A stretch of 64,000 nucleotides of DNA, from contig JAUSMA010000071.1 of NCBI GenBank assembly GCA_030645475.1, positions 1 through 64,000 of the forward strand, read 5' to 3'. The translations under genes and the position numbers were made by a program. The notes under the pieces are model-generated. The model worked only from the letters and a program-made list of their open reading frames with translations, did not search any database and was not told the origin of the DNA. Shown piece by piece: positions 48,104-64,000 of this stretch. Source of the DNA: Nitrospirota bacterium (lineage in GTDB: Bacteria > Nitrospirota > Nitrospiria > Nitrospirales > Nitrospiraceae). Position 1 is the stretch's first letter. Each line of letters starts with the position of its first letter.

Positions 48104-48859
48104 TTACGCCTCCTGAATGCCGTGTTTCCGAAGCCAAAACTCTACCATCGGCACTTGCCATTCATAGTCCACATCGCATCCTCCCCATGATGGGATAGGT
48201 GCAATCCGTTGCCCCATCCACTTCTGCGGTAACAGGCCTTCACTCATCTGCTCCAAGCACTTTGGCCGAACTACTGAAACCGACATATCGGCAAAATGCA
48301 CATCCCCCTGCGAATCCCGATCACAGTTGAGCGTACGAGGATCTCCGAAAGTTTCGAACGGCACAAAAGGCCTTAGGCAACCGTCCGAATGGAGTTTCCG
48401 AGCCCGCAAGGGACTCCACATGTTGTACACCGATGTCGTCACGGCTGAATCAAAATGTGCATCCCTACGGAGAGTCTCAATCCCTTGGTCCATCAATTGA
48501 CTCGTGATCGTTGCGGCGTTGGCGAACAATAGGATCATCAACTCTACCTCTAGTCCCTGCGACGCCAACCTTCTTTGTATTTCCCGATAGCCGTGCACGA
48601 ACACGTCTTCGCCTAAGGCCTGCTTCGTCGCCAACTCAGCTGGCCGCTCGATGAGCTCTGCGCCATATCCCTTGGCGATGTCCATGATCTCAGGAGAATC
48701 CGTGGAGACAAAGATCCGTTCCACATAGCGCGAACCTTTCGCTGCCAGGAGCGGATACGCTGCAAGAGGCCGCCCGAGAACCGGATATACGTTCTTCCCG
48801 GGAAACCCAATACTGCCTTTCCGTCCGATCATTAATGCGCAAACCACGGATTTACTCAT
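48104..48859 (-). CDS. Acylneuraminate cytidylyltransferase-like protein
   Basis: A 251-residue nucleotidyltransferase of the NeuA family. Seen: VCALMIGRKGSIGFPGKNVYPVLG (the expected Arg/Lys-rich CTP-binding loop), RIFVSTDSPEIMDIAKGYGAELIERP and MNLLFANA-type NAAT region (ILLFANAATITSQLMD). It probably makes a CMP-sugar acid, giving the locus a second activation step beside the gene at 53550. Overlaps the HAD gene by ATGA and is followed by the radical SAM gene. Confidence 0.86.
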   Translation of the reverse strand: MSKSVVCALMIGRKGSIGFPGKNVYPVLGRPLAAYPLLAAKGSRYVERIFVSTDSPEIMDIAKGYGAELIERPAELATKQALGEDVFVHGYREIQRRLASQGLEVELMILLFANAATITSQLMDQGIETLRRDAHFDSAVTTSVYNMWSPLRARKLHSDGCLRPFVPFETFGDPRTLNCDRDSQGDVHFADMSVSVVRPKCLEQMSEGLLPQKWMGQRIAPIPSWGGCDVDYEWQVPMVEFWLRKHGIQEA

Positions 48860-49542
48860 ACCCCTCCCAATCCCTCAGAATATTCGAGGCCATCAAAACT
48901 CGCCCCTTGGTATCGGCTTTGCAAATCATGAGTTAACGGGGTCCGCCGAAGCAGAAAGGGCACCTGATTTGCGGAAGCGGCATTAAAGTCCGCCTCTGAA
49001 TCTCCGACCACTAACACTTGGTCACGAGCATACTGAAATCGCCGCAGCACATCCCCTATTGCCGAAGCTTTTGGTCTCGGAGCGCCGTGCACCTCCCGGA
49101 AACAGTGGCCGATCTCCAGCACGTTCAATATTTGCAGAATTTCTTCCTGGGGCGTTGCAGTCAGGAGCACAAAGTACTGCCGGGAATACTGCTCTTGCAA
49201 ATACTCACGCACACCCGGGACCCATGCCGCATCGATAACAGACTGCCACACCTGTCGCGCAAATCGGTCACAGAATTCATTGACCTGCTCTACTGTCCCT
49301 GGCTCGCCGGCCCAGCGAAGATAGATGGGAATCTTTTCAAAGCGCGAAACACCTGCATGGGCTTCATGATGTTCCCGCACACGATCGGCAAGATCCCTGC
49401 CGTAGGACAAAAATAGTTGCTCGAACGCAACAGACTTGGCGATCACAGAGTCCTTGATGACCCCGTCGAAATCCCAAAACACCAGCCGTTTGCTGCGGAT
49501 TAGGTTCCTGGCGTTTGCGCTCTGACCCAAATCTGATTCCAA
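48856..49542 (-). CDS. HAD-family hydrolase
   Basis: A 228-residue HAD phosphatase of the phosphoglycolate/beta-phosphoglucomutase type: FWDFDGVIKDSVIAKSVAFEQ (motif I with a cap insert), FVLLTATPQEEILQILNVL (motif II), GDVLRRFQYARDQVLVVGDSEADFNAA (motif III/IV). It may remove phosphate from a sugar-acid phosphate before CMP activation by the overlapping cytidylyltransferase gene, as KdsC-like or NeuA-coupled phosphatases do. The ORF starts at TTG 49542 and overlaps the FkbM gene by 43 nt; a GTG at about codon 21 is an alternative. Confidence 0.85.
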   Translation of the reverse strand: MESDLGQSANARNLIRSKRLVFWDFDGVIKDSVIAKSVAFEQLFLSYGRDLADRVREHHEAHAGVSRFEKIPIYLRWAGEPGTVEQVNEFCDRFARQVWQSVIDAAWVPGVREYLQEQYSRQYFVLLTATPQEEILQILNVLEIGHCFREVHGAPRPKASAIGDVLRRFQYARDQVLVVGDSEADFNAASANQVPFLLRRTPLTHDLQSRYQGASFDGLEYSEGLGGV

Positions 49543-50366
49543 ACCTTTCCCCCGCCAAATGATTCTGCACTGTCGAACAGCGCCGAATGGCGCTTCTCTT
49601 TCAACACAAGCCCCGCCTCAAGAAGCAATTTCTGACACTGCTCCGCTTGTTCATGAAAGCTGTCATTGACCTCGATCAATACACCATCCACTTTCTTCAA
49701 TACAGCCATCGCTCCTCGCAATACGAGATGCTCAATCCCGTCCACATCAATTTTGATGAAGTTCGGTTGTGGCACTCGTAGAAGCTGCACAGCATCCGAA
49801 CCGGAAACGCCTATGGTCTGGAACTTGAACACCGGTTGCATCCTCTGACCATCCCAGCCGTAGTCTTGTCCGAAGGTCGATAACGCGCCTCCCCAATCAG
49901 TCGTTGTCATATTCAATGTGTTTATTGCCATCGAATCGAAAAGCGGTAAGGGAACGATGACAATTTTACCCGTGAGTCCATTGAGACAAATATTCCTGGC
50001 AAGCAATTCCAAGTTAAAAACAGAAGGTTCGAACGCAAACACCTGACAGTCCCTAGCCTTGGCAGAGTAACAAGAATATAGACCTACATTTGCGCCAATA
50101 TCCCATACGACTGCCCCACGGGGGATCGCATCGATCCATTCGAGCGTTTCAGGCTCTTTAGTCGAGAAGCTCTCCACACGAAAACGGTTCAGATTATTGG
50201 GCACGGCAAAGGTAAGTGTCGTCTTCTGATGGGTTAAAGTCTGCGTTGCCTGCATTGCCGTATTCACGATGATTTCAAATGCATAGGCACCCGGCCGTGT
50301 CTTCCTAAGCCAACGACTACTTGTGCTAAGGGATGCTTTAATAAACTTCTTGCTTGTACTGAACAT
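49500..50366 (-). CDS. FkbM-family methyltransferase
   Basis: A 288-residue SAM-dependent methyltransferase of the FkbM type: PRGAVVWDIGANVGLYSCYSAK (motif I), VFAFEPSVFNLELLARN, NFIKIDVDGIEHLVLRGA (the diagnostic KIDVDGxE) and VDGVLIEVNDSF. It likely O-methylates a sugar or sugar substituent. Encoded right before the HAD/cytidylyltransferase pair. Confidence 0.92.
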   Translation of the reverse strand: MFSTSKKFIKASLSTSSRWLRKTRPGAYAFEIIVNTAMQATQTLTHQKTTLTFAVPNNLNRFRVESFSTKEPETLEWIDAIPRGAVVWDIGANVGLYSCYSAKARDCQVFAFEPSVFNLELLARNICLNGLTGKIVIVPLPLFDSMAINTLNMTTTDWGGALSTFGQDYGWDGQRMQPVFKFQTIGVSGSDAVQLLRVPQPNFIKIDVDGIEHLVLRGAMAVLKKVDGVLIEVNDSFHEQAEQCQKLLLEAGLVLKEKRHSALFDSAESFGGGKVWNQIWVRAQTPGT

Positions 50367-50419
50367 GGTGTTGGGAGGGCTTCTTTAGCTATCAGTAATC
50401 CGACGGACCTGGAGAAGAA

Positions 50420-51310
50420 CTACAGCTGCGAGCGATCAGCGGACTTTCTACTACGCACATCTTCGATCAATTGGATCAACCCCTGCCCTAGGTCCACATG
50501 CATCGGTGGTACATATTTCCGCCCAAGTTTTGGCTGGTAGGCATAGGGTGTACGCACATAGTGACCGGGCTGATCGTTGGCAACAAACTCAACGGGCTTG
50601 TTCAAGCCTAATATCTCAGCCAGCATTTCAAGCAGATCGAGCACTCGCATGGGTTCCTGCCCAGTAAGGATGACACTTTGGTTGCGAAACTCCTCGCCGA
50701 GTGCCGCGACACTGGCACGCGCCGCATCCTCCACATGAATATACTCGCGCAGTGCATCGGCACTGCCCTCGTATCGTACGATGCCGGTCTCCAATGCATT
50801 CTTCACAATGCGATACAACCCGTTGCTCAGATCAGCGCGCGGGCCATAGAGCGAGCCATATCGCAGAATCGTGTAGTCGAGTCCGTACGCTCGCTGGTAT
50901 TCGTCTACATACTGCTCGGCCGCCTGTTTACTGCAACGATAAAAGCCTCCTTGACGGCTATAGACATACACCGTACTGGCATAGACAAAACGCTTTACCC
51001 CATGTCGCCGACAGGCTTCCATAACGTACGTGTTACCGAGGACGTTTATTCGCACTGTTTCAACGGGCTTATCGAGGGCTTCGTTCAGATCCGCCAACGC
51101 GGCAAAGTTATAAACAACGTCAGAACCAGCAACAGCCGCCGCAACGCCGTCGGCGTCCATGAGATCACCGATCACCATTTCCTGATCTGGCCGCAACCAC
51201 GAGGACGGATTACGATCGTAAATGCGGACACCATGCCCCTCGTCACTCAGCGCATCGGCGACATGGCTTCCCAGAAATCCTGAACCACCGATCACACAGA
51301 CTTTTCTCAT
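50420..51310 (-). CDS. NAD-dependent epimerase/dehydratase
   Basis: A 296-residue extended SDR: RKVCVIGGSGFLGSHVADAL, VVYNFAALADLNEALDKP, FVYASTVYVYSRQGGFYRCSKQAAEQY (YRCSK supplies the catalytic pair), LRYGSLYGPRADLSNG. It acts on a nucleotide sugar, probably in the nonulosonate or neutral-sugar branch. The start at 51310 follows the previous stop by 1 nt; an upstream in-frame ATG inside the previous gene is less likely. Confidence 0.9.
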   Translation of the reverse strand: MRKVCVIGGSGFLGSHVADALSDEGHGVRIYDRNPSSWLRPDQEMVIGDLMDADGVAAAVAGSDVVYNFAALADLNEALDKPVETVRINVLGNTYVMEACRRHGVKRFVYASTVYVYSRQGGFYRCSKQAAEQYVDEYQRAYGLDYTILRYGSLYGPRADLSNGLYRIVKNALETGIVRYEGSADALREYIHVEDAARASVAALGEEFRNQSVILTGQEPMRVLDLLEMLAEILGLNKPVEFVANDQPGHYVRTPYAYQPKLGRKYVPPMHVDLGQGLIQLIEDVRSRKSADRSQL

Positions 51311-51311
51311 A

Positions 51312-52295
51312 TCACAAGCCCTGCCGCTGGACATCATATTCACCTGGCGGGACCAAACCCATCAGGGGTTGACCGGTGAGGAATCGCACAGCCTCCTCCG
51401 TCGCCTCAATCTCCATACGTATTCTACAGTCTATCGACATGGACCCCATATGCGATGTCAACAAGCATCGCTCACTACTCCCCAACTCGCCCAGATAGGG
51501 CTCCTGCTCAAAAACATCGATTGCCGCGCCTGATAAATGCCCTTCTGACAAAACTCTCACTAGATCGTGCTCGTTGATAATACCGCCGCGTGAGGTATTA
51601 ATCACCGCCGCATCGGCCTTCATACTCTTGAGCTGCTCGTAGCGAATCATATTTTTTGTCTGCCCCGTGAGCGGTAAATGCAAACTGATGACATCGGCCT
51701 CTCGGAAAATGGCTTCTTTATCCATCCACTCAAGCTTGAGGGCCGGAGCAACATTTAAAACCGGGTGTAAGTCATTGACCAGCACCCTCGGCGTCCCGAA
51801 AGCTGCCAAACGCCGCAATACACGCCCACCAATGCGACCGACACCAAGGATGCCAATGGTGATTTCTGGAATGCGGCGTCCAAAATGGCGATGCCACTCA
51901 CCGCGATGCATTTGTGAATTCGCGACATGAACGTGGCGCAATAAGGTCAGCATGAGGCCGATCGTAAATTCCGCCACCGCAGGCGCCGGTGCGTCAGGAG
52001 TATAACTCACCTGTATCCCGCGTCGCTCCGCTGCTAACAGATCAACATTATCCAGGCCGATGCCCACCCGGGAAATCAGCCTCAAGTTCTTGGCGCGGCT
52101 CATGACCATGTCGGTAATCGGCTCAGTCCCTGCGATGAGCACATCAAAGTCTGCCACCATATCAGCTAACTCGTCTTCTTTCAGCTTCCGGCCAATGGGA
52201 TTGATGACATAGTGAATCCCTGCGCTTTCTAATAGCTCGATAGGTAACCGGTTTTTGTCTGCAAAGGGAACTGTCGTGATCAGGGCCTTAGGCAT
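51312..52295 (-). CDS. D-2-hydroxyacid dehydrogenase, phosphoglycerate-dehydrogenase-like
   Basis: 327 residues. NAD site TIGILGVGRIGGRVLRRL; catalytic Arg in ISRVGIGLDNVD, Glu in VINTSRGGIINEHDL and His in LLTSHMGSM. It converts a 2-keto acid to a D-2-hydroxy acid or the reverse. GGGGGAG lies about 5 nt before the ATG at 52295, which is preferred over 52322. One of three such genes in the locus, between an epimerase and a putative polysaccharide protein. Confidence 0.9.
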   Translation of the reverse strand: MPKALITTVPFADKNRLPIELLESAGIHYVINPIGRKLKEDELADMVADFDVLIAGTEPITDMVMSRAKNLRLISRVGIGLDNVDLLAAERRGIQVSYTPDAPAPAVAEFTIGLMLTLLRHVHVANSQMHRGEWHRHFGRRIPEITIGILGVGRIGGRVLRRLAAFGTPRVLVNDLHPVLNVAPALKLEWMDKEAIFREADVISLHLPLTGQTKNMIRYEQLKSMKADAAVINTSRGGIINEHDLVRVLSEGHLSGAAIDVFEQEPYLGELGSSERCLLTSHMGSMSIDCRIRMEIEATEEAVRFLTGQPLMGLVPPGEYDVQRQGL

Positions 52296-52318
52296 GGGCT
52301 CCCCCTTAAATCTCACCC

Positions 52319-53548
52319 TCATACATTGCGGTCAGGCGTTGGGGCAATCTTTCGCCCAACCATTAAATCTTCGGCCCCGAGTTTCAACGCGTCTGAAAAT
52401 ATTTCCCAAAGCGGCAACTCCAAAGAGCCTTGAGATTTAATATACTTATCTTTAAACGAAGCATAGTTGTGGACGGAGACCTGCGTCCATGCCTTCAGGT
52501 CGATATCGCCCAAACGATAGTTGTCCACGTTGAGCAGGGGGGCAGCAAGACTGGCCTGAAAGCCCTCGATATATGGCTGATACCTGGATACCTGAAGTTC
52601 GTCCGTGGTGAGAAAGACCACTGGTTTCCCCCACAGAACCGAGAACGAAAGCGCTGTGGAATAATGGGTAAATACGAGGGAGGCACCTTGTATTAGTCGT
52701 GCTGTTTCACCGGCGACAAATTTCCTGCCACCAAAAGGAGATGTTTCGTTGGTGTAGGGAGTCTTCGGATGGGCTGCAATCACAACCGGAATCCCCGTTC
52801 GCTCTTCAAACTCAGTAAAGAACTGCTGGAGAGCAGGGAAATATTTCAGTGCACTGACATATGCGGGGGTTCCAGAAATCAAGAAATCATGGCGCTCAAC
52901 GAGGTTTTGGTCGAGAAACACCGCGTAAGGAGACACCGGCTCAGGCGAGCAGTCACGCAGAGCCAAAAATCTGTCGTAATCGAAGCTGTGCGCCCAAATT
53001 TGATACGGCGTTTGCGCGTCGGGACTACCTAAGGTATGAGTCCCCGAAAGAACCGTAATTTCAGCCATATCACTCGTCAGCCCCAGCATCGGATAAAGAG
53101 CACACCTGAGTTTTCGATATCTGCCAGATATCATGTCGCGCAAGCGCTTAATTAGCGCTCGAGGCCGTTGCTTCCATTGGCGCATCATGGGTGCAGGCAT
53201 CACACCCGCAAAAACACGTGAGCGGAGAATGCCAAAACTGCGAAGGGTTTCTCGTATACATCTATGCTGTCCCCTACCAGGTAACAGGTAGTCAATGGCG
53301 ACAGCCTGATTGCACAAAGGAGCGATAATTCGTTTTATTTCATCGATCGTATGTACCGGAACATACTCAGGGCATTCGTATCTATGGTGTCCGAATGTCG
53401 CCCACAATTCAGACCTGAGGAGTGGGGTACAGTCGAGAATATGGACCTGAAAGTGACGGGAAAGAATGTCTATGCCAAAACGCTCATGGTCACGCTTTCG
53501 AAAAGGGGTCTCAGTCAAGACAAGAATGTGTCGAATGCTTCCAGCCAT
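52319..53548 (-). CDS. Putative glycan biosynthesis protein, GT-B-like
   Basis: A 409-residue protein not matched to a named family with confidence. Seen: ILVLTETPFRKRDHERFGIDILSRHF at the N-terminus, and a C-terminal domain reading IPVVIAAHPKTPYTNE, LIQGASLVFTHYSTALSFSVLWGKPVVFLT and YIEGFQASL. The S-x-x-F-SVLWGKPV pattern resembles donor-binding halves of GT-B and capsule-type transferases. A surface glycan transferase or assembly role is an inference from the fold-like cues and neighbours. Confidence 0.65.
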   Translation of the reverse strand: MAGSIRHILVLTETPFRKRDHERFGIDILSRHFQVHILDCTPLLRSELWATFGHHRYECPEYVPVHTIDEIKRIIAPLCNQAVAIDYLLPGRGQHRCIRETLRSFGILRSRVFAGVMPAPMMRQWKQRPRALIKRLRDMISGRYRKLRCALYPMLGLTSDMAEITVLSGTHTLGSPDAQTPYQIWAHSFDYDRFLALRDCSPEPVSPYAVFLDQNLVERHDFLISGTPAYVSALKYFPALQQFFTEFEERTGIPVVIAAHPKTPYTNETSPFGGRKFVAGETARLIQGASLVFTHYSTALSFSVLWGKPVVFLTTDELQVSRYQPYIEGFQASLAAPLLNVDNYRLGDIDLKAWTQVSVHNYASFKDKYIKSQGSLELPLWEIFSDALKLGAEDLMVGRKIAPTPDRNV

Positions 53549-53549: not shown

Positions 53550-54236
53550 TCAATATGAACGTTTCCCTAACAAGAACTCCAAGAACAGGAAATCGAACTC
53601 GGTATCGATGTCCAAAGACTCTTCTCTTGACATGAGATAGCCGACGGTTTGACTGGCGACAAATCGTCTTTCCTTTTTGAGCCACGGGATTTCAGCAACA
53701 TAGACGACGCCGTTCAGAGCATACAGCACCGGCAAATCCTGGCGACGACCAGAAACACTGACATTCATCAACCGGCTGAGATGGTGTTGCTCGTCGAGCT
53801 GAAAAACACTGAACGGTGAAGTTTCGGCCTCGCAGATTGAAACGCAAGCCGGCGCCGTACAGTTCAAGCAAAATTCCATTGCTCCGTCAATATGTGCGGC
53901 TGTACGCAGCGGAGAGGTTGGTTGCAGCAAAACGACATAGTCAAAACCCTGGTAGCTTTCGATGGCGTGCAGGACCGGTTCGGTGCCTGGGGTTTCATCG
54001 CTGGCAAGATGTGCTGGGCGCTGGAGGAGACTCACACCATAGCTAGCCGCGACCTTCAGGATTTCGTCGTCCTCACTACTGACCACAATTTCGTCAAGAT
54101 ACCTGCTGTGCTTTGCCGCCTCAATGGTGTACCAGAGGAGAGGCTTTCCAGAGACGACCCGAAGGTTCTTACGGGGCACGCCTTTGGAGCCTCCGCGTGC
54201 AGGGATAACGGCCAGAACACGTTTTCCTTGGATCAC
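53550..54236 (-). CDS. neuA: Acylneuraminate/legionaminate cytidylyltransferase
   Basis: A 228-residue enzyme that activates a nonulosonate with CTP. It has VLAVIPARGGSKGVPRKNLR, the full NeuA signature, then IVVSSEDDEILKVAASYG, VLLQPTSPLRTAAHIDGAM and FLDIDTE-like SLDIDTEFDF. GTG at 54236 overlaps the preceding stop (GTGA). It follows ptmE-like and legI-like genes, so CMP-legionaminate synthetase (LegF/PtmB type) is the most likely role; sialate cannot be excluded. Confidence 0.9.
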   Translation of the reverse strand: MIQGKRVLAVIPARGGSKGVPRKNLRVVSGKPLLWYTIEAAKHSRYLDEIVVSSEDDEILKVAASYGVSLLQRPAHLASDETPGTEPVLHAIESYQGFDYVVLLQPTSPLRTAAHIDGAMEFCLNCTAPACVSICEAETSPFSVFQLDEQHHLSRLMNVSVSGRRQDLPVLYALNGVVYVAEIPWLKKERRFVASQTVGYLMSREESLDIDTEFDFLFLEFLLGKRSY

Positions 54237-55276
54237 TCGAAAAGCTCCGGGTAGTCGATCAGGGCCTGTTGCAAGTCCTCGCGGCGACCAATGTCGAGCC
54301 AATAGTCTTCAACATGGTGACACCGTACGGATTGGCCATCCTCAATTAGGCTCGCAAAATGTTCCGGCATATCCAAAAATGTCTGTTTGGGGATACGTGC
54401 TACTGCAGGTGGGGAAAGCACGTAGATGCCGGCGTTGACGATGACGCGATGGATGGGTTTTTCCTCCAGAGAGCCAATGCGATCATCCTTGGCGTGCACC
54501 ACACCGAAAGGAATGCGATATTCGTGCTCACGCACAGCCATTGTGGCCACGGCACTTGTCTCAATATGTCGGTCAAGCAACTGCGAGTAATCTACTTTGG
54601 TTAGCAAATCGGCATTGCTCACGAGAATAGGTTTTTCGGGAGGAGGCAGCAGGCTTAGCGCGCCAGCGGTGCCCATGCGCATTGTTTCGCGCAGGTAACG
54701 GATGTTGGCACCGAATTTGGCTCCATTGCCGAAATACGCCTCAATCTGGTCGGCGTGATAATTGACCGCCAGCCAGATGTTGCGGTAACCCTGTTCGGCA
54801 AAACGGTCGATGATGGTTTCAAGCAACGGTTTATTTCCTACTGGCAGCATTGGCTTCGGGGTGTTGCGTGTGAGCTCCTTGAGCCGAGTTCCGAGCCCGC
54901 CAGCCATGATGATCACCCAGTTTTCGTGGGGTTCAGCCTGCAGCAAGTCATCAATGCGCTTTAGGCCGACAACCTTGCCGTCATCATCGACTAGTGGAAG
55001 CTGGTGAAGCATATGCTGTCGCATCTTGGACAGCATGACTTCGCGCGAATCGCCGAGGGTTGTCGTAGTTGGGGTGCGGCACATGCACCGCTCAACGGGG
55101 TCTGTGAGCGTCATCCCCGCCAGTAACGCGCGGCGAACGTCACCGTCGGAGAGCGTGCCGAGAAGATACCGCTCCTGGTCGACAACGAGCGCCAATTGTG
55201 TTGCGGCAGAGTTAATACAAGCCAGCGCTTCCTGGATTGAGGCATGTGGGCCGATCAGGGCTTGCTCCCATTTCAT
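54233..55276 (-). CDS. ptmE: CBS-domain nucleotidyltransferase, PtmE/LegE-like
   Basis: 347 residues. A pair of CBS domains (about 1-115; LLGTLSDGDVRRALLAG, LPLVDDDGKVVGLKRIDDLL) precedes a nucleotidyltransferase domain (IIMAGGLGTRLKELTRNTPKPML, ILVSNADLL, VNAGIYVLSP). This two-part architecture is that of PtmE, the glucosamine-1-phosphate guanylyltransferase of the legionaminic acid route. Its position between legI and neuA agrees with that assignment. Overlaps legI by 4 nt. Confidence 0.85.
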   Translation of the reverse strand: MKWEQALIGPHASIQEALACINSAATQLALVVDQERYLLGTLSDGDVRRALLAGMTLTDPVERCMCRTPTTTTLGDSREVMLSKMRQHMLHQLPLVDDDGKVVGLKRIDDLLQAEPHENWVIIMAGGLGTRLKELTRNTPKPMLPVGNKPLLETIIDRFAEQGYRNIWLAVNYHADQIEAYFGNGAKFGANIRYLRETMRMGTAGALSLLPPPEKPILVSNADLLTKVDYSQLLDRHIETSAVATMAVREHEYRIPFGVVHAKDDRIGSLEEKPIHRVIVNAGIYVLSPPAVARIPKQTFLDMPEHFASLIEDGQSVRCHHVEDYWLDIGRREDLQQALIDYPELFE

Positions 55277-56292
55277 AAGACAATTCCTTCGATGTCGCCA
55301 AGGTGGATGACGCGATCTGCTGCCAGATCCCTGCGCGCAGTGGTGCCAATCACGCGGTCGCGCAGCAATGGCGATAGGCCGGTTCCTGGACGCTTGAAGA
55401 CCAAATCCGCCTTTTCGATGCGTGCTCCGGCAGGAATGTCGCGAGCCGTAACAATGCTCTTACGCGCCATGCGCCGAATTCCTTCTTCTGTTGCCGAAAA
55501 GGTCTTTTGAGCATTACCCAGGGCAGCTTCGACGCGTCGGATGGAAGCGACCATGCTGTAGAATTCCTCAATGGTGGCAGATGCATTATGGTCCGGCCCT
55601 GGCATGTTCTTGTCGAGGGTGACGTGTTTTTCGATGACCTGTGCTCCAAGGGCCACGGCGGCCAGGCAGGATTCAGCACCGAGGCTGTGATCAGAAAAAC
55701 CGACTTTGCAGCGGAACTGCTTAGCCAGTTCTGGCATGGCCAGCAGATTCATATCAGCGTGAGGGGACGGGTAGTTGCTAACACAGTGAAGAAGGGTGAT
55801 GTCTTTCAGTCCTTCGCTGGTAAGGACCACCAAGGAGCTGGCAATTTCGTCAAAATTCGCCATGCCAGTGGAGAGGATGACCGGCTTTTGGCGATGCGCC
55901 ATATATTCGAGCATGTCGATGGTCAGTAGTTCACCCGACCCCACCTTGAAGCGCGGAACATTGAGCGCCTGATCGAGAAACTCAAGCGAGCCCAGATCGA
56001 AAGCCGTGCAGAGATAAAGGATGTCCATCTTTACACAGGCCTGCTGCAACTGCCGGTGAGCATCCTGCGGGAGTTGGAGCCGGCGGGACATTTCAATGAC
56101 CGAGCCGGCGCCATCGTTCTGTTTCTGATACTCGGCCTTGAAGGCGTCGGCCGAGTACACGGCCTCAGGATCCGCCAACTGAAATTTAATTGCATCTGCG
56201 CCGCTGAGCGCAAGGCGTTTTACCATCTCCAGCGCAATCTCGAGCGAACCATTATGGTTGGGGCCGATTTCCGCAATCACAAATGCAGTCAT
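55273..56292 (-). CDS. legI: N-acetylneuraminate/legionaminate synthase
   Basis: Condenses phosphoenolpyruvate with a 6-carbon N-acyl sugar to form a nonulosonate. 339 residues: FVIAEIGPNHNGSLEIALEMV, IKFQLADPEAVYS, FKVGSGELLTIDMLEYMA and VGFSDHSLGAESCLAA in the TIM barrel, then a SAF (antifreeze-like) domain at about 275-335 (RKSIVTARDIPAGARIEKADLVFKRP). The start at 56292 overlaps the ATP-grasp stop (ATGA). NeuB and LegI share these motifs; the ptmE and legC neighbours favour legionaminate. Confidence 0.92.
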   Translation of the reverse strand: MTAFVIAEIGPNHNGSLEIALEMVKRLALSGADAIKFQLADPEAVYSADAFKAEYQKQNDGAGSVIEMSRRLQLPQDAHRQLQQACVKMDILYLCTAFDLGSLEFLDQALNVPRFKVGSGELLTIDMLEYMAHRQKPVILSTGMANFDEIASSLVVLTSEGLKDITLLHCVSNYPSPHADMNLLAMPELAKQFRCKVGFSDHSLGAESCLAAVALGAQVIEKHVTLDKNMPGPDHNASATIEEFYSMVASIRRVEAALGNAQKTFSATEEGIRRMARKSIVTARDIPAGARIEKADLVFKRPGTGLSPLLRDRVIGTTARRDLAADRVIHLGDIEGIVL

Positions 56293-57239
56293 GGCGTATC
56301 GCACCAATGGAGAGAAATGCCTTTCATCACGGTAATCAGTCGTGGAGCAGGAGGCAAACAGGGTTTCTCGCCTCGCACCATGTCAAGAATTGCCTTAAGG
56401 TAGTTAAATCCCGCTAGATGCGTGGCGGGGTAACCACCGCCAAATCTGGGGTTGAAATCGATGCAGTAGATCGCACCGTCCTTCGCACGCAAGACATCGC
56501 AATCGAGATTGCCGATGTGGCCAAACGCCTTCGAGATGCGTCGCCCCAAGTCTTCCAGCGCCTCATCGCGAATAATCTGGGCTTTGTCGGTCTCCCCAGC
56601 CCGCATCAGCAATTTACGTTTGACGCAGACGGCAACGAACTCGCCGTCAAGTGCGTTCAGGACGTCTAGACCGAACTCGTCGCCTGCAATAAACGGCTGC
56701 AGCATGTCGCGGCCCGAGAGGAAGCCAGCCAGCTCCTCTTTGCGTTCAACCTGCCTCAGGCCGCTCGACCCGCTACCCAGTATGTGTTTCTGGATCACCG
56801 GGAAAGGTCCAACATAGGGAGCGGCATCAAACCAAGATTCCGGCGTTGGCAAACCGATGCTACGGCAAAACTTGAAAGTCAGATTCTTGTCGTTACAACG
56901 ACCTATCACTGCCGGTGCCGATACAATCGCCGTGCATCCGAGCAGGTCAAACTTCTCGCGATGCTGCGCCAAAATCATCGGGTCCAGATCGGACAACGGG
57001 AAAATAACTTCGAACCTTTCCCGCCTGACTAGGTCAAGCAACGCAGCCAGGTACGCCTGCGGATTTTCAAGCACCGGCGGCAGCAGATGCGTGCGCTCAG
57101 TTGGCACCACCTGCATCGCCGCGCTCAGCAAACTACAATCAGACACATGAATGTGCACCGGATAGCCCGAATGCTCGAGATCCAGTCCAAACTGGACCAG
57201 ATAGGTACGCCGTCCCGCATTCGTAAACAACACTTTCAT
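56289..57239 (-). CDS. ATP-grasp ligase-like protein
   Basis: A 316-residue ATP-grasp protein: MKVLFTNAGRRTYLVQFGLDLE, VIFPLSDLDPMILAQHRE, an ATP-binding lid GPFPVIQKHILGSGSSGL, MLQPFIAGDEFGLDVL and the metal-site YCIDFNPRFGGGYPATHL. Such enzymes join a carboxylate to an amine via an acyl phosphate. In this setting it could attach a modified acid to the amino group of a nonulosonate precursor. It lies between legI and a 224-bp gap. Confidence 0.9.
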   Translation of the reverse strand: MKVLFTNAGRRTYLVQFGLDLEHSGYPVHIHVSDCSLLSAAMQVVPTERTHLLPPVLENPQAYLAALLDLVRRERFEVIFPLSDLDPMILAQHREKFDLLGCTAIVSAPAVIGRCNDKNLTFKFCRSIGLPTPESWFDAAPYVGPFPVIQKHILGSGSSGLRQVERKEELAGFLSGRDMLQPFIAGDEFGLDVLNALDGEFVAVCVKRKLLMRAGETDKAQIIRDEALEDLGRRISKAFGHIGNLDCDVLRAKDGAIYCIDFNPRFGGGYPATHLAGFNYLKAILDMVRGEKPCLPPAPRLITVMKGISLHWCDTP

Positions 57240-57463
57240 TAATAAACCTGTTGACAGTTAAGCTTTGGAATTAGGCACTTGACTGGAGGCAATCTAGCAA
57301 ATCCTTCGTAACCGCTCGGTGAGCATCACGCACACGTATCGATTCATCTCGATGCATCTTGCTCGTCCCTGGGACTACTCCACTGGATGCCCCAGAGGAA
57401 TAAGATTCTGTTTTCAGGTGTACGACGCAACAAACCAAAGCAAAACCCTAGCATCCTCAGGCC

Positions 57464-58429
57464 CTAATATCCGGCGCTCAAATCAACGATATTCTTCAAC
57501 GGCAATCCTTTGGCAAACGCCACCAGATTTTCCATCACGTCTAGCAGGTTCGGAGAACTCCCGCGCACGGTACCGGCGCGATGCGGTGAAACCAGTGCAT
57601 TGTCAAACCGGGTGAATTCCACCAGGCCCGCCATGCCATCCACGCCGTCATAGGGTACGTCCAGCGCTGCACCGCGAATACGCCGGTGCTCCAACGCCTC
57701 GACCAATGCTACGCGATCGATCACTTCGGCACGGCCGACATTGACGATATACGGCGCGGGGGTTCTCAAACCAAGCTCCGTCACGCCGATCATGCCGCGC
57801 GTACTCTCTGTCAGCGGCACCGAAACGATCACGGCATCGGCCAGCGTCATAATCTCTGTCAAATTGGACATCCTGACTCCGGAACGCGGCTGACGCGCAC
57901 ACACCAGAAGCCTGACGTCAAATCCGGTCAGGAAGCGGGCAACGGTCTGATTGATAGCACCATACCCGATTAGGCCTATCGTCGCACCGCTCAACGCGTC
58001 GCTCTGATAGGCATCGTCCTCAGAATTACCTTGAGGGCGATACCAAACACCCTTGCGCAACATCCTGTCGTGAAGCGCCACCTTGCGCATTAAGGCAAGC
58101 AGCATTGCAATCGCGTGCTCTGCGACTTGCGGGGCATGTGACAGGGAATTGCAGACCGTAATACCGTGCGCCGCCAAAGCCAGCTTGTCCAGCTTCTCTA
58201 GCCCCGCGCCGGGGGTTTGTAGCATTTGCAACCGCATGGCCTCCGCAAGGACCGCAGGTGTTATCGCGGAGCCCAACGCTACGTCCGCGTCTTTCGCGAG
58301 CGAGATCAACGCCATCTCGTCGAATGTCCGGGGCTCAAGAATCTCGTAAAACGGCGCCAGTCCTTCAAACAGCCAATCCCGGTTGGACCGGGAGAACTGG
58401 TGCAACAGCAGCAGATGCGGCTTCGGCAT
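57464..58429 (-). CDS. D-2-hydroxyacid dehydrogenase (divergent)
   Basis: A 321-residue NAD-dependent D-2-hydroxyacid dehydrogenase with TIGLIGYGAINQTVARFL (cofactor site) and His in ALVSPHRAGT. The usual Arg region TPGAGLEKLD and the Glu/Gly region VNVGRAEVIDRVALVEAL are degenerate compared with the RG-x-x-V-D norm. The start MPKPHLLLLHQFSRSNRDWL is noteworthy: a closely similar but broken N-terminus lies at 60215-60355. Part of the inserted module between legG and legI. Confidence 0.86.
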   Translation of the reverse strand: MPKPHLLLLHQFSRSNRDWLFEGLAPFYEILEPRTFDEMALISLAKDADVALGSAITPAVLAEAMRLQMLQTPGAGLEKLDKLALAAHGITVCNSLSHAPQVAEHAIAMLLALMRKVALHDRMLRKGVWYRPQGNSEDDAYQSDALSGATIGLIGYGAINQTVARFLTGFDVRLLVCARQPRSGVRMSNLTEIMTLADAVIVSVPLTESTRGMIGVTELGLRTPAPYIVNVGRAEVIDRVALVEALEHRRIRGAALDVPYDGVDGMAGLVEFTRFDNALVSPHRAGTVRGSSPNLLDVMENLVAFAKGLPLKNIVDLSAGY

Positions 58430-58468
58430 ATAGATCAGAGCGACTCTCCAGATTCGACCATTGCCCTG

Positions 58469-59155
58469 CTAGACCGGTTTGTGGACGCAGGCGATGAATT
58501 CATAACTGTCGTGGTTGCAATATTTGAACGACACATGCCCAAGATCGTCTACCACAAACTGCTTGAACAAAGCGGCAAAACTCTCCGCCGTCTTTGGACA
58601 ATAGCAGCGCAAAAGTTTTTCCTGATCTTTGTGCAATGCATATTCAAATATGTCGTCGGCCACAAATCGTCCCTTGGTGGCAAAGTCACTGGCCGGACCG
58701 TTGATATCAACAATCATCTTTCCGCCCGGCTTGAGAATGCGGTGAAATTCATCCACCAATATTTCAATCCGTTCCTTACTCTCAAGCAGCGACAGCACGC
58801 TCATACAGATCACATAGTCGAATTCGTTGTCTGCAAAAGGTAAGCGGCGATCGTTTGGATCCAGCCGCAGCACATCGGCGCGCGCAGCCAGCTCTGGCCT
58901 GGCGTCCAGTTTACGGCGTACCAGCTTGACCGACTCTTCCGCTGCATCGACGCCGACCGCATGATATCCGCACTCAAGAAGATGGATCATATTCACACCG
59001 GTGCCGCAGGCAAAATCAAGCACCTTGCCAGGCAGTTTCTTGAAATACCAACCTTCCAGGCGTACTAGATCCAGTGTTGGATAACGCTTGTCATAACCTC
59101 CACGGTAAACATTTTCATATTTGTCCACGTTAGCGGGAACTACCAATGTCGTCAT
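58469..59155 (-). CDS. Class I SAM-dependent methyltransferase
   Basis: A 228-residue methyltransferase. YDKRYPTLDLVRLEGWYFKKL precedes motif I VLDFACGTGVNMIHLLECG, then VGVDAAEESVKLVRRK, FDYVICMSVLSLLE and ILKPGGKMIVDING. AAGGAGGG precedes the ATG at 59155, giving a strong start. It sits between the two 2-hydroxyacid dehydrogenases, which suggests O-methylation of a hydroxy acid or of its sugar conjugate; this is inference. Confidence 0.9.
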   Translation of the reverse strand: MTTLVVPANVDKYENVYRGGYDKRYPTLDLVRLEGWYFKKLPGKVLDFACGTGVNMIHLLECGYHAVGVDAAEESVKLVRRKLDARPELAARADVLRLDPNDRRLPFADNEFDYVICMSVLSLLESKERIEILVDEFHRILKPGGKMIVDINGPASDFATKGRFVADDIFEYALHKDQEKLLRCYCPKTAESFAALFKQFVVDDLGHVSFKYCNHDSYEFIACVHKPV

Positions 59156-59165
59156 AATGCCCTCC

Positions 59166-60110
59166 TTAAAATCCAGCGACTTTATCCACAATATTGATCA
59201 ATGGCAGGCCAGCGATGAAACGGCGAATATTCGTTGTAATTAATTCATAATTGCGTTCGCGAAAGCGGTCAGAGCGGCCCGCCAGATGCGGGGTCACAAT
59301 GACGCGTTCAAATCCGCGAATCCGATGATCGGCCGGCAAGGGTTCTGGATTGGTGACATCCAGGCCAACGCCGGCAAACTTACCTGCATCCAGCGCTTCC
59401 ACCAACGCACCGAGATCGACCGTACCACCGCGCGAGACATTCACCAGATAGGCGTCCTGCTTCATGGCATTGAATTGCTCGCGTCCTAGCATATTACGGG
59501 ACCGCGGGGTAAGCGGCGCCACCATGATGACGACGTCGGCATTGGGCAAAGCCACCATAAGTTGATCGCCGAAATATGTCTTGCGCACGCTGCTGACCAA
59601 CGGCATGCCTGTTTCAGTAACAACATCAACCGTCATGCCGAAGGCCGACAATCTTTCCGCCACTAACATGCCGATACCGCCGAAGCCAATGACAACGGCC
59701 GTTTTGCCTCGCAGCTCAATCGGCGCGGGAAGCCTGTCATTCGTCACGCCTTTCAGGATGAGACCAATGCGCCGACTTAGGCAAAGCGTGAGCGCCACCG
59801 CATGTTCCGCCACTTCCGGTCCCTGAATAATCTTCCCGTTGGTCAGCGTGATCGACGAGGTGGCCAGATTGGGAAATAGGTAGAAATCAATCCCTGCGCC
59901 TGGCGCATGCGCCCAACGCACGCTTTTGTTGGTCGCCAGAAAATGCTCGGTAAACACCTTGTCGAAGGGGGCCCGGCTCATGCCGATGAGCGCATCGGCT
60001 TCGGCGATATCGACCTCGGCACCGTCCGTGCGCACAAAATCGACGGTCGGGAACAGTGTCCGAAATGCGCTGAACTGATCGTCGTATGCGCCCGCAAGAA
60101 GTATTTTCAT
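59166..60110 (-). CDS. D-2-hydroxyacid dehydrogenase
   Basis: 314 residues. NAD site TAVVIGFGGIGMLVAERL, catalytic Arg/Gly region IDFYLFPN-type loop (APGAGIDFYLF), Glu region LVNVSRGGTVDLGALVEAL and His in VIVTPHLAGRS. All three catalytic landmarks are better kept here than in the paralog at 57464. The ATG at 60110 gives MKILLAGAYDDQ. It follows a 247-bp stretch that contains a broken relative of such a gene. Confidence 0.9.
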   Translation of the reverse strand: MKILLAGAYDDQFSAFRTLFPTVDFVRTDGAEVDIAEADALIGMSRAPFDKVFTEHFLATNKSVRWAHAPGAGIDFYLFPNLATSSITLTNGKIIQGPEVAEHAVALTLCLSRRIGLILKGVTNDRLPAPIELRGKTAVVIGFGGIGMLVAERLSAFGMTVDVVTETGMPLVSSVRKTYFGDQLMVALPNADVVIMVAPLTPRSRNMLGREQFNAMKQDAYLVNVSRGGTVDLGALVEALDAGKFAGVGLDVTNPEPLPADHRIRGFERVIVTPHLAGRSDRFRERNYELITTNIRRFIAGLPLINIVDKVAGF

Positions 60111-60214
60111 CAATACATGCCTAGCCTGAAGGTTATAAAGAAGCGGCGATGCCGAAGACACAAGCGTCCATGCGCGTCATCCTGACAGCCAAGAATTTTT
60201 GTAGCCCTACCATA

Positions 60215-60355
60215 TTAGCAATCAGCTTTCATGAACGTAGCCTCATCGTTGGTGGGGAACTCAATGATCTCGCATTACGCACCGTGACGCGCCATCAGCC
60301 ACTGGCGGTCACGTGGTGCGAAATGGCGCAGGAGCAGGAGTGTCGGTCGTCGCAT
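60215..60355 (-). pseudogene. Broken N-terminus of a 2-hydroxyacid dehydrogenase gene
   Basis: Starting at an ATG 2 nt after the aminotransferase stop, the minus-strand frame gives MRRPTLLLLRHFAPRDRQWL then MARHGA and a TAA (60275-60277). After that stop the same frame continues CEIIEFPTNDEATFMKADC before a second stop at 60215. This lines up with PKPHLLLLHQFSRSNRDWLFEGLAPFYEILEPRTFDE of the intact gene at 57464 (KPHLLLLHQFSRSNRDWL region). The rest of the gene is gone. A degraded duplicate is the simplest explanation. Confidence 0.66.
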
Positions 60356-60357
60356 GA

Positions 60358-61527
60358 TTAACTGCCAACCACCGTTGTGGTGAACGCATGCAACCGGTTG
60401 ATGCCCTCGGCAAAGGATGAGCAATCGGTTGCTAGCGAGATGCGCACATGATCATCCCAGTGGCTACCAAAACTGATGCCTGGGCTGGCGGCGACAGCGT
60501 GGTTTTGCAGCAGGCCGGCACAGAACGCATCGGAATCCAAGCCGGTGCGCCCAATGTTCAGAAAAGCGAAAAGGCCACCTTCGCTGGCTTGCAATTCCAG
60601 CGCTGGGCTCTGGTCGACAACACCCTGGAGGTAATTGGCATTGCGAGCCAGTTGCGCATTGTATTCGGCTAAAAAATCCATAGGCATGGCCAGTGCAGCC
60701 ACAGCGGCGCATTGAGTAAAGGGCGCCACATTAGTATTCATGTGCTGCTGAAGTTTGCTGATGGTTTTCATGATCGGCCCTTTGGCGGCGAGGTAGCCGA
60801 TACGCCAACCCGTCATGCTGTACGCCTTGGAGAAACCGTTGATGGTGATGGTTCGCTCCGCTAGTGCAGCCACGGCACCAGGCGAAAGATGCCGTTGCCC
60901 TGAAAAATTTAGACGTTCGTAGATTTCGTCAGAAATCAGCCAGCATGAGTGATCTGTCAGGAGTTCGACGAGAACGTCGAGTTCGCGTTGCGTGAGCATC
61001 TTCCCGGTCGGATTGTGTGGGAAGTTGATGATGAGAGCTTTGGTGCGCGGCGACAGTCGATGGCGTAAGGCATCAAAATCCAGCGAGAAATCGGCGTGGC
61101 ACAAATCGATGTTGTGAATGATCGCTTCCGGCTCGGCGATCCGGATCTGCGGAAGATAGCTGGGGTAGCAAGGCAGAATGTTGATGACCTCATCACCCGG
61201 TTGCAACAGGGCCGCCAGTGCCAGCGAGAGCGCCATCTTGGCACCCGGGGTCACCATGATTTCTCCAGGTGAAACGGAGATGCCATTGTCAGCGACCAGC
61301 TTGGCGCAAATCGCTTCGCGTAACTCCGGCAACCCAAATGGGCTGGAATAACGCGTCATTCCATTGCGCATGGCCTCTATCGCCGCCTCGACGACTGCCG
61401 GCGGCGTTGGGAATGCCGGCTCGCCGAGACCGAGGGAAATAATGCGCTCACCCCGTTCGTTCATTTGTCGCGCCACACCGCTGAAGCGCAATTCAAGAGA
61501 GTCCTGGATTTCCGGGGATAGTTTCAT
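60358..61527 (-). CDS. Class I/II PLP-dependent aminotransferase
   Basis: 389 residues of the aspartate-aminotransferase fold: RIISLGLGEPAFPTPPAVVEAA, YSSPFGLPELREAICAKL, LIINFPHNPTGKMLTQREL, SDEIYERLNFSG, and the PLP-lysine motif TITINGFSKAYSMTGWRIGYLA. It converts an amino acid to its 2-keto acid (or reverse). Its position next to two 2-hydroxyacid dehydrogenases suggests it supplies the keto acid they reduce. Overlaps legG by ATGA. Confidence 0.92.
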   Translation of the reverse strand: MKLSPEIQDSLELRFSGVARQMNERGERIISLGLGEPAFPTPPAVVEAAIEAMRNGMTRYSSPFGLPELREAICAKLVADNGISVSPGEIMVTPGAKMALSLALAALLQPGDEVINILPCYPSYLPQIRIAEPEAIIHNIDLCHADFSLDFDALRHRLSPRTKALIINFPHNPTGKMLTQRELDVLVELLTDHSCWLISDEIYERLNFSGQRHLSPGAVAALAERTITINGFSKAYSMTGWRIGYLAAKGPIMKTISKLQQHMNTNVAPFTQCAAVAALAMPMDFLAEYNAQLARNANYLQGVVDQSPALELQASEGGLFAFLNIGRTGLDSDAFCAGLLQNHAVAASPGISFGSHWDDHVRISLATDCSSFAEGINRLHAFTTTVVGS

Positions 61528-62681
61528 AGGTCGATAAACCGTTTGCGGAGCAATTTGGCGTTAAGTGGCAGAGTGGCAAGAATATCCGCGATCCGCTGGC
61601 CGGATCGCCCATCGCCGTATGGATTGATGAGGTCGCGCAGACCGTCACGGAAATCGTTGGAGATTGCGAGTTGTAAGGCCTCGGCAATATCGGCGCGACC
61701 ATAGCCGCAATTGATGATGTTGGCGGCCTTAATTTTTCCATCCTGACGTGTACCGATATTGACTACGGGCAGGCGGAAGGTTGGCGCCTCGACCAAGCCG
61801 CTTGAAGAGTTTCCAATCATGGCCGTGGCGTTCGCCATGAGGCTGGTGTAACGCTCAGAACCTGCATTGGCAAAAACTTTGGTTTTGGCGGGAACCGCCT
61901 GGGCGTAGGCGTTCACCGCAGCGATGATGCTTTGGCTTCCGGGGTCCGCATTTGGATAGGTAATGACGCACGGCAGCGGCGAGTCGGACACAACTTCCAA
62001 GAGGGCGGCAATCTGGGTTTCGACGTCCTCCAATTCGAGCGTGACAGGATGGAAACTCAGCAACAGGAATCCCTTAGTGAGATCCAACCCGGTTTCCGCG
62101 CACAGTGCTCCGCGATCGAAAATGGCCAGTCTGGTCAGTTCGTCAAGACCCGGAGCACCAACGGTCTGCACGCGCCAATCCTCCTCACCCATCTGCCGAA
62201 CGCGTTTGGCGTATTCATCGGTCGATACCAGGTGATAGTGACTCATTTTGGTCAGAGCGTGTCGTACCAACTCGTCGATGGCTCCTTCCGTCACAGCACC
62301 TCCGTGAATGTGGACGACCGGAAGATTGAACCCCAGGGCGGCGTTTGCACCACTCAACATCTCGTAGCGATCCCCGAGCAAGACCAGCAGATCCGGGCGG
62401 TCCCTTGCGAATGACTGTGCCAGCGCTGCAGTCGCCAGCGCAATAGTTTTGCCAACGCCAACGGGAGTGTTACATGCGAGCGTAGCATCCAGGCCCGGCT
62501 CGAACTTGAACCCGGCTGCTTCGATTTCGCGCCAGGTTTCGCCGTAGATCGGCGAAAAATGCCCGCCGGTTGCCAGCAGTCGGAGTACGACGTCCGTGCG
62601 CGTTTGCAGCGCTCGCAGTACCGGGCGATAGCGGCTGAAGTCTGAGCGTCCGACAGTGAGGACGGCAATGGTTCGGGTCAT
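61524..62681 (-). CDS. legG: UDP-sugar hydrolysing 2-epimerase, LegG/NeuC-like
   Basis: Releases the nucleotide and epimerises C2 of a UDP- or GDP-2-acetamido-4-amino sugar to give the 6-carbon substrate for LegI. 385 residues: TRTIAVLTVGRSDFSRYRPVL, VLLGDRYEMLSGANAALG, VVHIHGGAVTEGAIDELVRHALTKMSH, LLLSFHPVTLELEDVETQ and ATAMIGNSSSGLVEAPTFRLPVVNIGTRQ. NeuC-type enzymes share this pattern; the LegC/LegB neighbours favour LegG. Confidence 0.92.
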   Translation of the reverse strand: MTRTIAVLTVGRSDFSRYRPVLRALQTRTDVVLRLLATGGHFSPIYGETWREIEAAGFKFEPGLDATLACNTPVGVGKTIALATAALAQSFARDRPDLLVLLGDRYEMLSGANAALGFNLPVVHIHGGAVTEGAIDELVRHALTKMSHYHLVSTDEYAKRVRQMGEEDWRVQTVGAPGLDELTRLAIFDRGALCAETGLDLTKGFLLLSFHPVTLELEDVETQIAALLEVVSDSPLPCVITYPNADPGSQSIIAAVNAYAQAVPAKTKVFANAGSERYTSLMANATAMIGNSSSGLVEAPTFRLPVVNIGTRQDGKIKAANIINCGYGRADIAEALQLAISNDFRDGLRDLINPYGDGRSGQRIADILATLPLNAKLLRKRFIDL

Positions 62682-62721: not shown

Positions 62722-63894
62722 CTAATTTAAGGTGGCACTGCTGGGCAAATTGAGCAGACATCTTTCGATGGCCTCAGCGATTGGCAGAGGAGCACGGGGA
62801 CACTGTGCATACATCGGTAGTTTGTGCATCAACGTCCAACAAGGACGGGCCATGAAACCGGCCTCGTTGAGTGACTGCAGCACAAAGTCCCGCGCTCCCG
62901 CGCATGACTCGGGCAAGAGAATGGCATTGAGCCAGTAATTACTTTTTGTCTCGGCTGGTTCGCAAACGAATCTGACCACGGGAACGGAAGAAAATGCGTC
63001 TTTGTAGCGGTGTGCAAGGTCGCGTTTCCGAGCCAGAAAGCTTGGCAAGACCTCCATCTGTGCACAGCCGAGCGCTGCGTTGATATTTGGCAATCGATAA
63101 TTGAACCCGATTGAGTCATGCGTAAGTTCCCACCGATGCGCCACGCGTGCTGTAGTAGTCAGGTGTTTCGCCCGACGGCCAAGTTCCGGGTCATTCGTCA
63201 GGATGGCACCGCCCCCACCCGTTGTAATGATCTTGTTGCCATTAAAGCTCAGTGCGGCCACGCGGCCAAAGTTGCCTGTATGAACACCTCGGTAGGTCGA
63301 GCCCAGAGACTCGGCTGCATCTTCGACCATAGCTAAGCCATAACGGTCACACACTTTTTGCAGTCCCTCAACGTTGACCGGGTGTCCGAACGTGTGCATC
63401 GGTACGACCGCGCGTAATCGACGACCGGTAGATCGGTTGATCCAGACATCTCCAGCGCGTTTTGCAATGATTTCCAGATACCCTTCCAACGCGACTGGGT
63501 CTATTCCCAATGTCTCTTCGGCACTATCCACAAAGTGTGGAACCGCACTGCAGTAACTAACGGCATTGGCTGTAGCGACAAAGGTTAATGTCGGAATTAG
63601 GACTTCATCGTTGGGTTGTACATCCGCCAGGAGAAGGGCAACATGCAATGCGGCGGTGCCGTTGCAGGTCGCAATCGCGTGCCTGGCGCCGGTATATTCC
63701 GAAAGCATGACCTCGAAACGGTCGACGTAGGCTCCGACCGAGGAAACCCAGCCCGTGCGCAGACAATCCAAAACGTATTCTTCCTCTCGGCCTTTAAAAC
63801 TGGGTTCGTGCAAGGCGACATTGCCGCGCGCAGATGGAATAGCCGCTCGAACTGCTTGCAGTATCTGATTCGCGATGCCCGATGCTTGGCTCAT
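62722..63894 (-). CDS. legC: LegC-family aminotransferase
   Basis: A 390-residue DegT/DnrJ/EryC1-type PLP enzyme that aminates the 4-keto-6-deoxy sugar made by LegB. NVALHEPSFKGREEEYVLDCLRTGWVSSVG is the LegC opening; GNGTAALHVALL-type ATCNGTAALHVALLLA, VEDAAESLGSTY and the PLP Lys in LSFNGNKIITTGGGG follow. The start at 63894 (MSQASGIANQIL) is used. 14 bp after legB. Confidence 0.92.
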   Translation of the reverse strand: MSQASGIANQILQAVRAAIPSARGNVALHEPSFKGREEEYVLDCLRTGWVSSVGAYVDRFEVMLSEYTGARHAIATCNGTAALHVALLLADVQPNDEVLIPTLTFVATANAVSYCSAVPHFVDSAEETLGIDPVALEGYLEIIAKRAGDVWINRSTGRRLRAVVPMHTFGHPVNVEGLQKVCDRYGLAMVEDAAESLGSTYRGVHTGNFGRVAALSFNGNKIITTGGGGAILTNDPELGRRAKHLTTTARVAHRWELTHDSIGFNYRLPNINAALGCAQMEVLPSFLARKRDLAHRYKDAFSSVPVVRFVCEPAETKSNYWLNAILLPESCAGARDFVLQSLNEAGFMARPCWTLMHKLPMYAQCPRAPLPIAEAIERCLLNLPSSATLN

Positions 63895-63908
63895 ATTCGG
63901 CAACGGCC

Positions 63909-64000
63909 TCAGATGTTGTAGCTGCCCGCCTTGTAGCGGGCGAGATTGGCAGGCTGAACAAACCACTCGATGGTTTCTTGCATACCGCGCTTGAATCCCG
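63909..64000 (-). CDS. legB: C-terminal end of LegB-like NAD-dependent 4,6-dehydratase (partial)
   Basis: Only the last ~30 codons are in the window. They read GFKRGMQETIEWFVQPANLA then RYKAGSYNI and a stop, which is the usual C-terminal signature of LegB-type 4,6-dehydratases (G-(L/M)-x-ETIxWF ... Y-x-YNI). The body of the gene lies beyond the window edge. It is the first step of the legionaminic acid pathway and is followed at once by legC. Confidence 0.8.
   Translation of the reverse strand, partial: GFKRGMQETIEWFVQPANLARYKAGSYNI

Follow-up and report, generated by a model that had tools for sequence, protein, structure and literature searches.

The DNA analysed here, hereafter the window, is a stretch of 64,000 nucleotides from a Nitrospirota bacterium (GTDB order Nitrospirales; assembly GCA_030645475.1, contig JAUSMA010000071.1, positions 1-64,000, forward strand), and it carries a legionaminate-type nonulosonate locus with a five-gene cassette set between its legG- and legI-type genes. 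Open reading frames (ORFs) and Pfam matches bear out the five intact minus-strand genes, with the coordinates and families given in the initial annotation: a class I/II pyridoxal phosphate (PLP) aminotransferase (AT, 60358-61527; PF00155, 8e-57), the D-2-hydroxyacid dehydrogenase DH1 (59166-60161; PF02826, 1e-44), a class I S-adenosylmethionine (SAM)-dependent methyltransferase (MT, 58469-59191; PF13649, 1.7e-18), the D-2-hydroxyacid dehydrogenase homologue DH2 (57464-58429; PF02826, 4e-37), and an ATP-grasp ligase (56289-57239; PF02655, 8e-13; PF21360, 1e-9; PF15632 and PylC-like_N). The true starts of DH1 and MT are probably the ATG codons at 60110 and 59155 respectively.

The cassette is flanked on the same strand by genes of the nonulosonate pathway. 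Upstream lie LegB (contig 63909-64913, across the window edge and immediately upstream of LegC; TIGR04180, 518.8 bits, cut-off 475), a LegC-type aminotransferase predicted to make the 4-amino sugar (62722-63966; TIGR04181, 526.7 bits, cut-off 420), and a NeuC/LegG-type nucleoside diphosphate (NDP)-sugar 2-epimerase/hydrolase (61524-62681; TIGR03568, 400 bits, cut-off 236). Downstream lie a NeuB/LegI-type nonulosonate synthase (55273-56307; PF03102, 4e-85; TIGR03569, 381 bits, cut-off 400), whose gene is joined to that of the ATP-grasp enzyme by a 19-base overlap, a PtmE-like protein with CBS and nucleotidyltransferase domains for NDP-sugar supply (54233-55276; PF00571, PF00483), and a cytidine monophosphate (CMP)-nonulosonate synthetase of the LegF/PseF/NeuA type (53550-54302; PF02348, 9e-20; TIGR03584, 145 bits, cut-off 206). 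LegB and LegC, both over their cut-offs, are as expected of a CMP-legionaminate (di-N-acyl nonulosonate) operon, and LegG, LegI, and LegF are recognised by TIGR03568 together with strong NeuB and CTP_transf_3 domains, however the exact sugar is not fixed because TIGR03569 and TIGR03584 fall below their cut-offs. The order of transcription is LegB, LegC, LegG, AT, DH1, MT, DH2, ATP-grasp, NeuB, PtmE-like, NeuA-type, a 409-amino-acid (aa) protein, and a third D-2-hydroxyacid dehydrogenase, DH3. Several features go beyond those first annotated: LegC in the window, LegB past its edge, DH3, the absence of LegH, and, at 60217-60355, the decayed fragment of a dehydrogenase gene between AT and DH1.

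A scan of a genome collection with the ATP-grasp protein as query returned one locus, L007, in a Planctomycetota groundwater metagenome-assembled genome (JACPHJ010000046), with the order NeuC, AT, dehydrogenase, 607-aa B12-binding radical SAM protein, ATP-grasp, NeuB, PtmE-like, NeuA, and a homologue of the 409-aa protein. The AT stands at the same position and is 70% identical between the two loci, with the ATP-grasp enzyme and NeuB each 69% identical and their genes sharing the 19-base overlap, the PtmE-like protein 64%, and the CMP-synthetase 59%. The 409-aa protein is conserved together with this block at 44% identity, and NeuC/LegG lies outside it, being merely 36% identical to its L007 counterpart. 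The L007 dehydrogenase is 39% identical to DH2 and 26% to DH1, with DH1 and MT absent from L007 and the radical SAM protein inserted there. By this comparison the core is AT-DH2-ATP-grasp-NeuB with an exchangeable methyl-transfer part, and the identities, order, and shared overlap indicate that NeuB-PtmE-NeuA has been transferred between phyla as one unit with AT, a dehydrogenase of the DH2 type, and the ATP-grasp ligase, to which DH1-MT and the radical SAM protein are variable additions. Linkage of the cassette genes is not due to chance, since the ATP-grasp/NeuB junction and the gene order recur in another phylum, and three of the five D-2-hydroxyacid dehydrogenases in the genome fall within 9 kb at this locus.

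Co-occurrence of the cassette with neuB/legI, for which the initial annotation called for a survey, is seen for the core in L007, and a search of 236 genomes from the window's own order did not recover the unit of AT, DH2, and ATP-grasp. Close matches to the ATP-grasp protein are absent from the 396 genomes of its phylum and the 294 Planctomycetota genomes searched, and a second cassette was not found in the 294 Planctomycetota and 236 own-order genomes, with one weak ATP-grasp match (G755, 1e-32). Searches of viral contigs found no relative, and plasmid searches with AT, DH1, DH2, MT, the ATP-grasp enzyme, and the 409-aa protein gave identities all below 60%, the three plasmid ATP-grasp neighbourhoods examined not being nonulosonate clusters.

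In the pathway as studied, LegB and LegC are followed by LegH, which acetylates N-4, before LegG, LegI, and LegF act (PMC6388019). The window shares LegB, LegC, LegG, LegI, LegF, and a PtmE-type protein in an operon-like run with the CMP-legionaminate legBCHGIF and ptmE genes of Campylobacter jejuni and Tannerella forsythia UB4, however it lacks LegH and carries AT-DH1-MT-DH2-ATP-grasp between legG and legI. Every legionaminate step except that of LegH has a gene at the locus, where inspection reveals no LegH/PseH N-4 acetyltransferase, and neither the NeuD-type (TIGR03570) nor the PseH-type (TIGR03585) profile gives a match over cut-off anywhere in the genome. Three candidates for LegH were rejected: 15274-15924 of the window, which is CysE-like and lies beside ispD/ispF; hexapeptide genes at C60:339-341 kb, which belong to another polysaccharide region without nonulosonate homologues; and a gene at C71:105 kb, which is LpxA-like by context. 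On the L007 contig, too, LegB and LegC score above their cut-offs, and LegH was not seen there on inspection of 8-44 kb.

A control search for LegC across 233 genomes of the window's order found it in 14, including the window's own, and the surroundings of the remaining 13 LegC genes were compared over as much as 20 kb, with 11 covering 16-20 kb. A NeuD/LegH-type gene (TIGR03570 over cut-off) is present at eight of these 11 well-covered loci, the independent number of loci being smaller because L059 and L060 are near-identical. The LegC loci L067 and L068 contain FemAB-like proteins, identified by eye, L061 has neither a NeuD-type gene nor the cassette, and AT, DH2, and the ATP-grasp gene occur at none of the LegC loci compared. 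As there are only two cases, the association of the cassette with an absent LegH is suggestive rather than statistical. At L061:14012-16637, an N-acetyl-sugar-amidotransferase-like protein with HisH/HisF-like partners was recognised by eye, as expected for an acetamidino group.

The AT contains the PLP-lysine region SKAYSMTGWR, with the nearest other aminotransferase copy in the genome being 36% identical and four other class I aminotransferase homologues lying elsewhere. DH1 retains an intact Arg-Glu-His triad and the nicotinamide adenine dinucleotide (NAD)-binding domain, as expected of a D-2-hydroxyacid dehydrogenase, and its closest solved structure is a D-2-hydroxyacid dehydrogenase (5mh5, 7.6e-35). 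Alignments of DH2 show the domain with the Arg and His kept and the catalytic Glu missing, leaving the triad incomplete, as in the L007 dehydrogenase, and equivalence of DH1 and DH2 is not supported. A role of the AT and dehydrogenases in central metabolism alone, the alternative against which the initial annotation was set, is weakened to the point of being unlikely, since no other aminotransferase in the genome is more than 36% identical to the AT, and a dehydrogenase ORF of SerA size (544 aa) is located elsewhere.

The gap between AT and DH1 holds a remnant of about 46 codons with an internal stop, running from 60355 to about 60217 on the minus strand directly after AT, which in local alignment matches the first 45-55 residues of DH2 (score 67) and of the L007 dehydrogenase (score 70), compared with 25 +/- 4 for shuffled sequences. 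The remnant shows no match to DH1 or DH3, and the same test found no dehydrogenase remnant in the gap before the ATP-grasp gene (57240-57463). A DH2-type remnant in this position indicates that, as L007 still shows, a gene of the DH2 type ancestrally came directly after AT, with DH1-MT looking like a later, lineage-specific insertion and the DH1-MT-DH2 order secondary. Furthermore, the retention of an intact copy of DH2 suggests that its function matters.

The ATP-grasp enzyme exceeds the cut-offs of PF02655 and PF15632, as expected of a carboxylate-amine ligase domain, and is related to uncharacterised PRK12767-type proteins with a PylC-like N-terminal domain and to structure 2pn1 (1.5e-34). 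Its C-terminal DFNPRFGG-type motif is conserved in L007, and similar genes in polysaccharide clusters, on one plasmid of E. coli and one of Sphingobium, have sugar aminotransferases and acetyltransferases as neighbours. The AlphaFold model of the enzyme is unusable (predicted local distance difference test, pLDDT, of 34). We propose that this ligase would couple a 2-hydroxy acid to an amino sugar through an amide bond.

Taken as a pathway, the cassette most likely replaces the LegH acetylation of a legionaminate-type pathway by ligation of a purpose-made acid that would become the N-7 acyl group, a reading that we put forward with moderate confidence. The sequences themselves establish the gene content and order, the conservation in two phyla, the lack of LegH, and the remnant, and from these we infer all reactions, the substrate, and the order of the steps. 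The AT would convert an amino acid to a 2-keto acid, which DH1, and possibly DH2, would reduce to a 2-hydroxy acid, with MT (perhaps the B12-binding radical SAM protein in L007) adding a methyl group, at O or C, to either the keto acid or the hydroxy acid. The ATP-grasp enzyme would then activate the carboxylate with ATP and form an amide to the 4-amino group made by LegB and LegC, following which LegG, LegI, and LegF would carry the acylated sugar into the CMP-sugar, the acyl group then residing at N-7. Serine converted to D-glycerate would be one option for the substrate, no more. The pathway first read from these genes thus survives in part, as a linked set that could supply a 2-hydroxy acid and join it to the amino group on a precursor of the nonulosonate, consistent with the AT, DH2-type dehydrogenase, and ATP-grasp enzyme accompanying neuB in two phyla and with the absence of LegH.

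The O-methylation included in that pathway is not supported as stated, with L007 carrying the radical SAM protein instead of MT and C-methylation or another change being just as possible. MT matches general class I methyltransferase profiles only, so its target atom (O or C) is not indicated; it has no close relative in the 396 genomes of the phylum or in plasmids, and its matches in the genome holding L007 are weak (8.9e-10 at best). B12-binding radical SAM proteins often methylate carbon or phosphorus, and the 607-aa protein of L007 (PF02310 and PF04055) weakly matches a range of families that includes several of C- and P-methyltransferases. O-methylation is one option and C-methylation fits as well, leaving the nature of the methyl group undecided. 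In a variant of the proposed LegH replacement, MT would act on the beta carbon of the 2-keto acid before the dehydrogenase, the radical SAM protein being its analogue in L007, where it stands in place of DH1-MT. Known keto-acid C-methyltransferases such as MppJ or GlmT act in this way, and the AT and DH2-type dehydrogenase remain constant while the methyl part varies. However, the profiles of MT favour neither atom, the radical SAM protein falls short of all curated cut-offs and is perhaps no methylase, and the precedents known on nonulosonates are O-methyl; we consider specific C-methylation rather improbable.

A second alternative leaves the acid itself in doubt: the ATP-grasp enzyme may attach an amino, keto, or stock acid, or act on the CMP-sugar or at N-5, with the LegH activity residing unrecognised elsewhere and the AT and dehydrogenases supplying another building block. 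The broad ATP-grasp family comprises carboxylate-amine ligases with varied partners, L061 manages with neither a NeuD-type gene nor the cassette, and DH2 lacks a catalytic residue, all of which would accommodate this alternative. In contrast, the joint occurrence of AT, dehydrogenase, and ATP-grasp ligase in two phyla suggests one product, and the genome holds no LegH candidate over cut-off, and we judge this alternative to be unlikely. Least probable of all is that AT, DH1, MT, and DH2 are passengers, or serve another surface polysaccharide component, with the ATP-grasp enzyme alone in the nonulosonate pathway. In favour of this, the cassette sits in an extensive mosaic region for glycan synthesis, which holds three synthases of the NeuB family and another dehydrogenase module, and the remnant attests to rearrangement. 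Against it, the AT is conserved across phyla at the same place and level with NeuB and the ATP-grasp enzyme (compared with 36% for the adjacent NeuC), which fits co-inheritance as one unit.

Several points nevertheless weigh against replacement of LegH by acid ligation. The dehydrogenase common to both lineages is of the DH2 type without the catalytic Glu, rendering its activity uncertain, and the enzyme activities and the glycan of the organism are predicted from genes. The absence of LegH was judged by family profile and inspection, and given the LegC locus L061 and the FemAB-like proteins of L067 and L068, an unrecognised acyltransferase (GNAT or FemAB-like) could perform the LegH step. Additionally, the cassette is known from two instances only, and in the L007 contig the link of LegB and LegC to the cassette is uncertain, given their distance of 16 kb from it and the presence of a second neuA-neuB-neuC set.

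Hydroxyacyl groups of the type proposed are known from other nonulosonates. The pseudaminate derivative Pse5Am7Gra of T. forsythia ATCC 43037 bears a glyceroyl group on N-7, for which no gene candidate was found (PMC6120980, PMC6388019), and corresponds to the product type proposed here, a 2-hydroxy acid as an amide on nonulosonate N-7. The di-O-methylglyceric acid of Campylobacter cited in the initial annotation is a genuine precedent, with C. jejuni NCTC 11168 producing a di-O-methylglyceroyl pseudaminate linked to Cj1295 by mutation, with oxonium ions of m/z 391 compared with 317 (PMC3068675). By our arithmetic, the difference (391 - 317 = +74) equals dimethylglyceroyl in place of acetyl, such that an O-methylated hydroxy acid replaces N-acetyl by mass, as in the type proposed here, however no aminotransferase/D-2-hydroxyacid dehydrogenase/ATP-grasp cassette is described for Campylobacter (PMC3068675). 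Like the window, the sfmABCDE flagellin-modification operon of Shewanella oneidensis encodes an ATP-grasp protein and a SAM methyltransferase alongside NeuB, and the nonulosonate of that species bears an O-methylated group of 236-264 Da that contains no nitrogen, with the ATP-grasp mutant showing a mass shift slightly less than that of the other mutants (PMC3765264). In contrast to the aminotransferase and D-2-hydroxyacid dehydrogenases of the window, the sfm operon has a thiamine pyrophosphate (TPP) enzyme and an acyl carrier protein (ACP)-reductase-like protein, and its ATP-grasp protein is, by the paper's annotation, of another family (ATP-grasp_4; PMC3765264). Consistent with the initial annotation, which took the linked cassette to be undescribed, no description of an aminotransferase/D-2-hydroxyacid dehydrogenase/ATP-grasp set with a nonulosonate synthase was found in the open-access literature searched. 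The flagellar glycan of Treponema denticola reportedly also carries a 2-methoxy acyl group on a nonulosonate, which we do not use as evidence.

The genes of the 409-aa protein and DH3 follow that of the CMP-synthetase on the minus strand. The 409-aa protein (52319-53548) has no Pfam family and is a possible GT-B-like nonulosonate glycosyltransferase, its low-confidence predicted model (pLDDT 56) resembling GT-B folds, which is a weak hint. A second recurring module (window 44018-52322; L068:9751-15998; L007:15368-20429) comprises a cytidylyltransferase, a HAD phosphatase, and a protein of about 630 aa without a Pfam family, represented in the window by CTP_transf (48104-48859), HAD (48856-49542), and a 632-aa protein (44018-45916). 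An HMGL-like aldolase accompanies the module in L007 and L068, and a DH3-type dehydrogenase in the window (DH3, 51312-52322, minus strand) and L068; DH3 probably belongs to this module rather than to the five-gene cassette, and the product of the module may be a further CMP-activated acid. The 629-aa protein at L007:18540-20429 and the 632-aa protein of the window have only a C-terminal stretch in common, at 23% identity, and are possible glycosyltransferases. Just past the window, at contig 66813-71062 (L008:6813-7829, L008:9254-11062), lies a further pair of NeuB-family synthases, one of which (602 aa) includes a fused cytidylyltransferase domain, placing three NeuB-type enzymes within about 16 kb, and at contig 71104-73710 (L008:11104-13710) an MBOAT O-acyltransferase lies beside a DUF1574 protein, a possible O-acetylation pair for the same glycan. 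An Rfam search of 55-64 kb in the window gave no match.

The operon without LegH, together with a co-inherited set of genes predicted to make and ligate an acid, provides concrete gene candidates for the hydroxyacyl decoration of nonulosonates. More tentatively, the two loci may represent a modular acyl system, in which an AT-dehydrogenase core would make the hydroxy acid, an exchangeable methylase would tune it, and the ATP-grasp ligase would take the LegH step, giving a swappable N-7 side chain. If true, this would give N-7 hydroxyacyl nonulosonates like that of Tannerella a genetic route for the first time. The signature of LegB-LegC without LegH, in combination with AT, dehydrogenase, and ATP-grasp genes beside neuB, could be used to predict unusual acyl groups from genomes.

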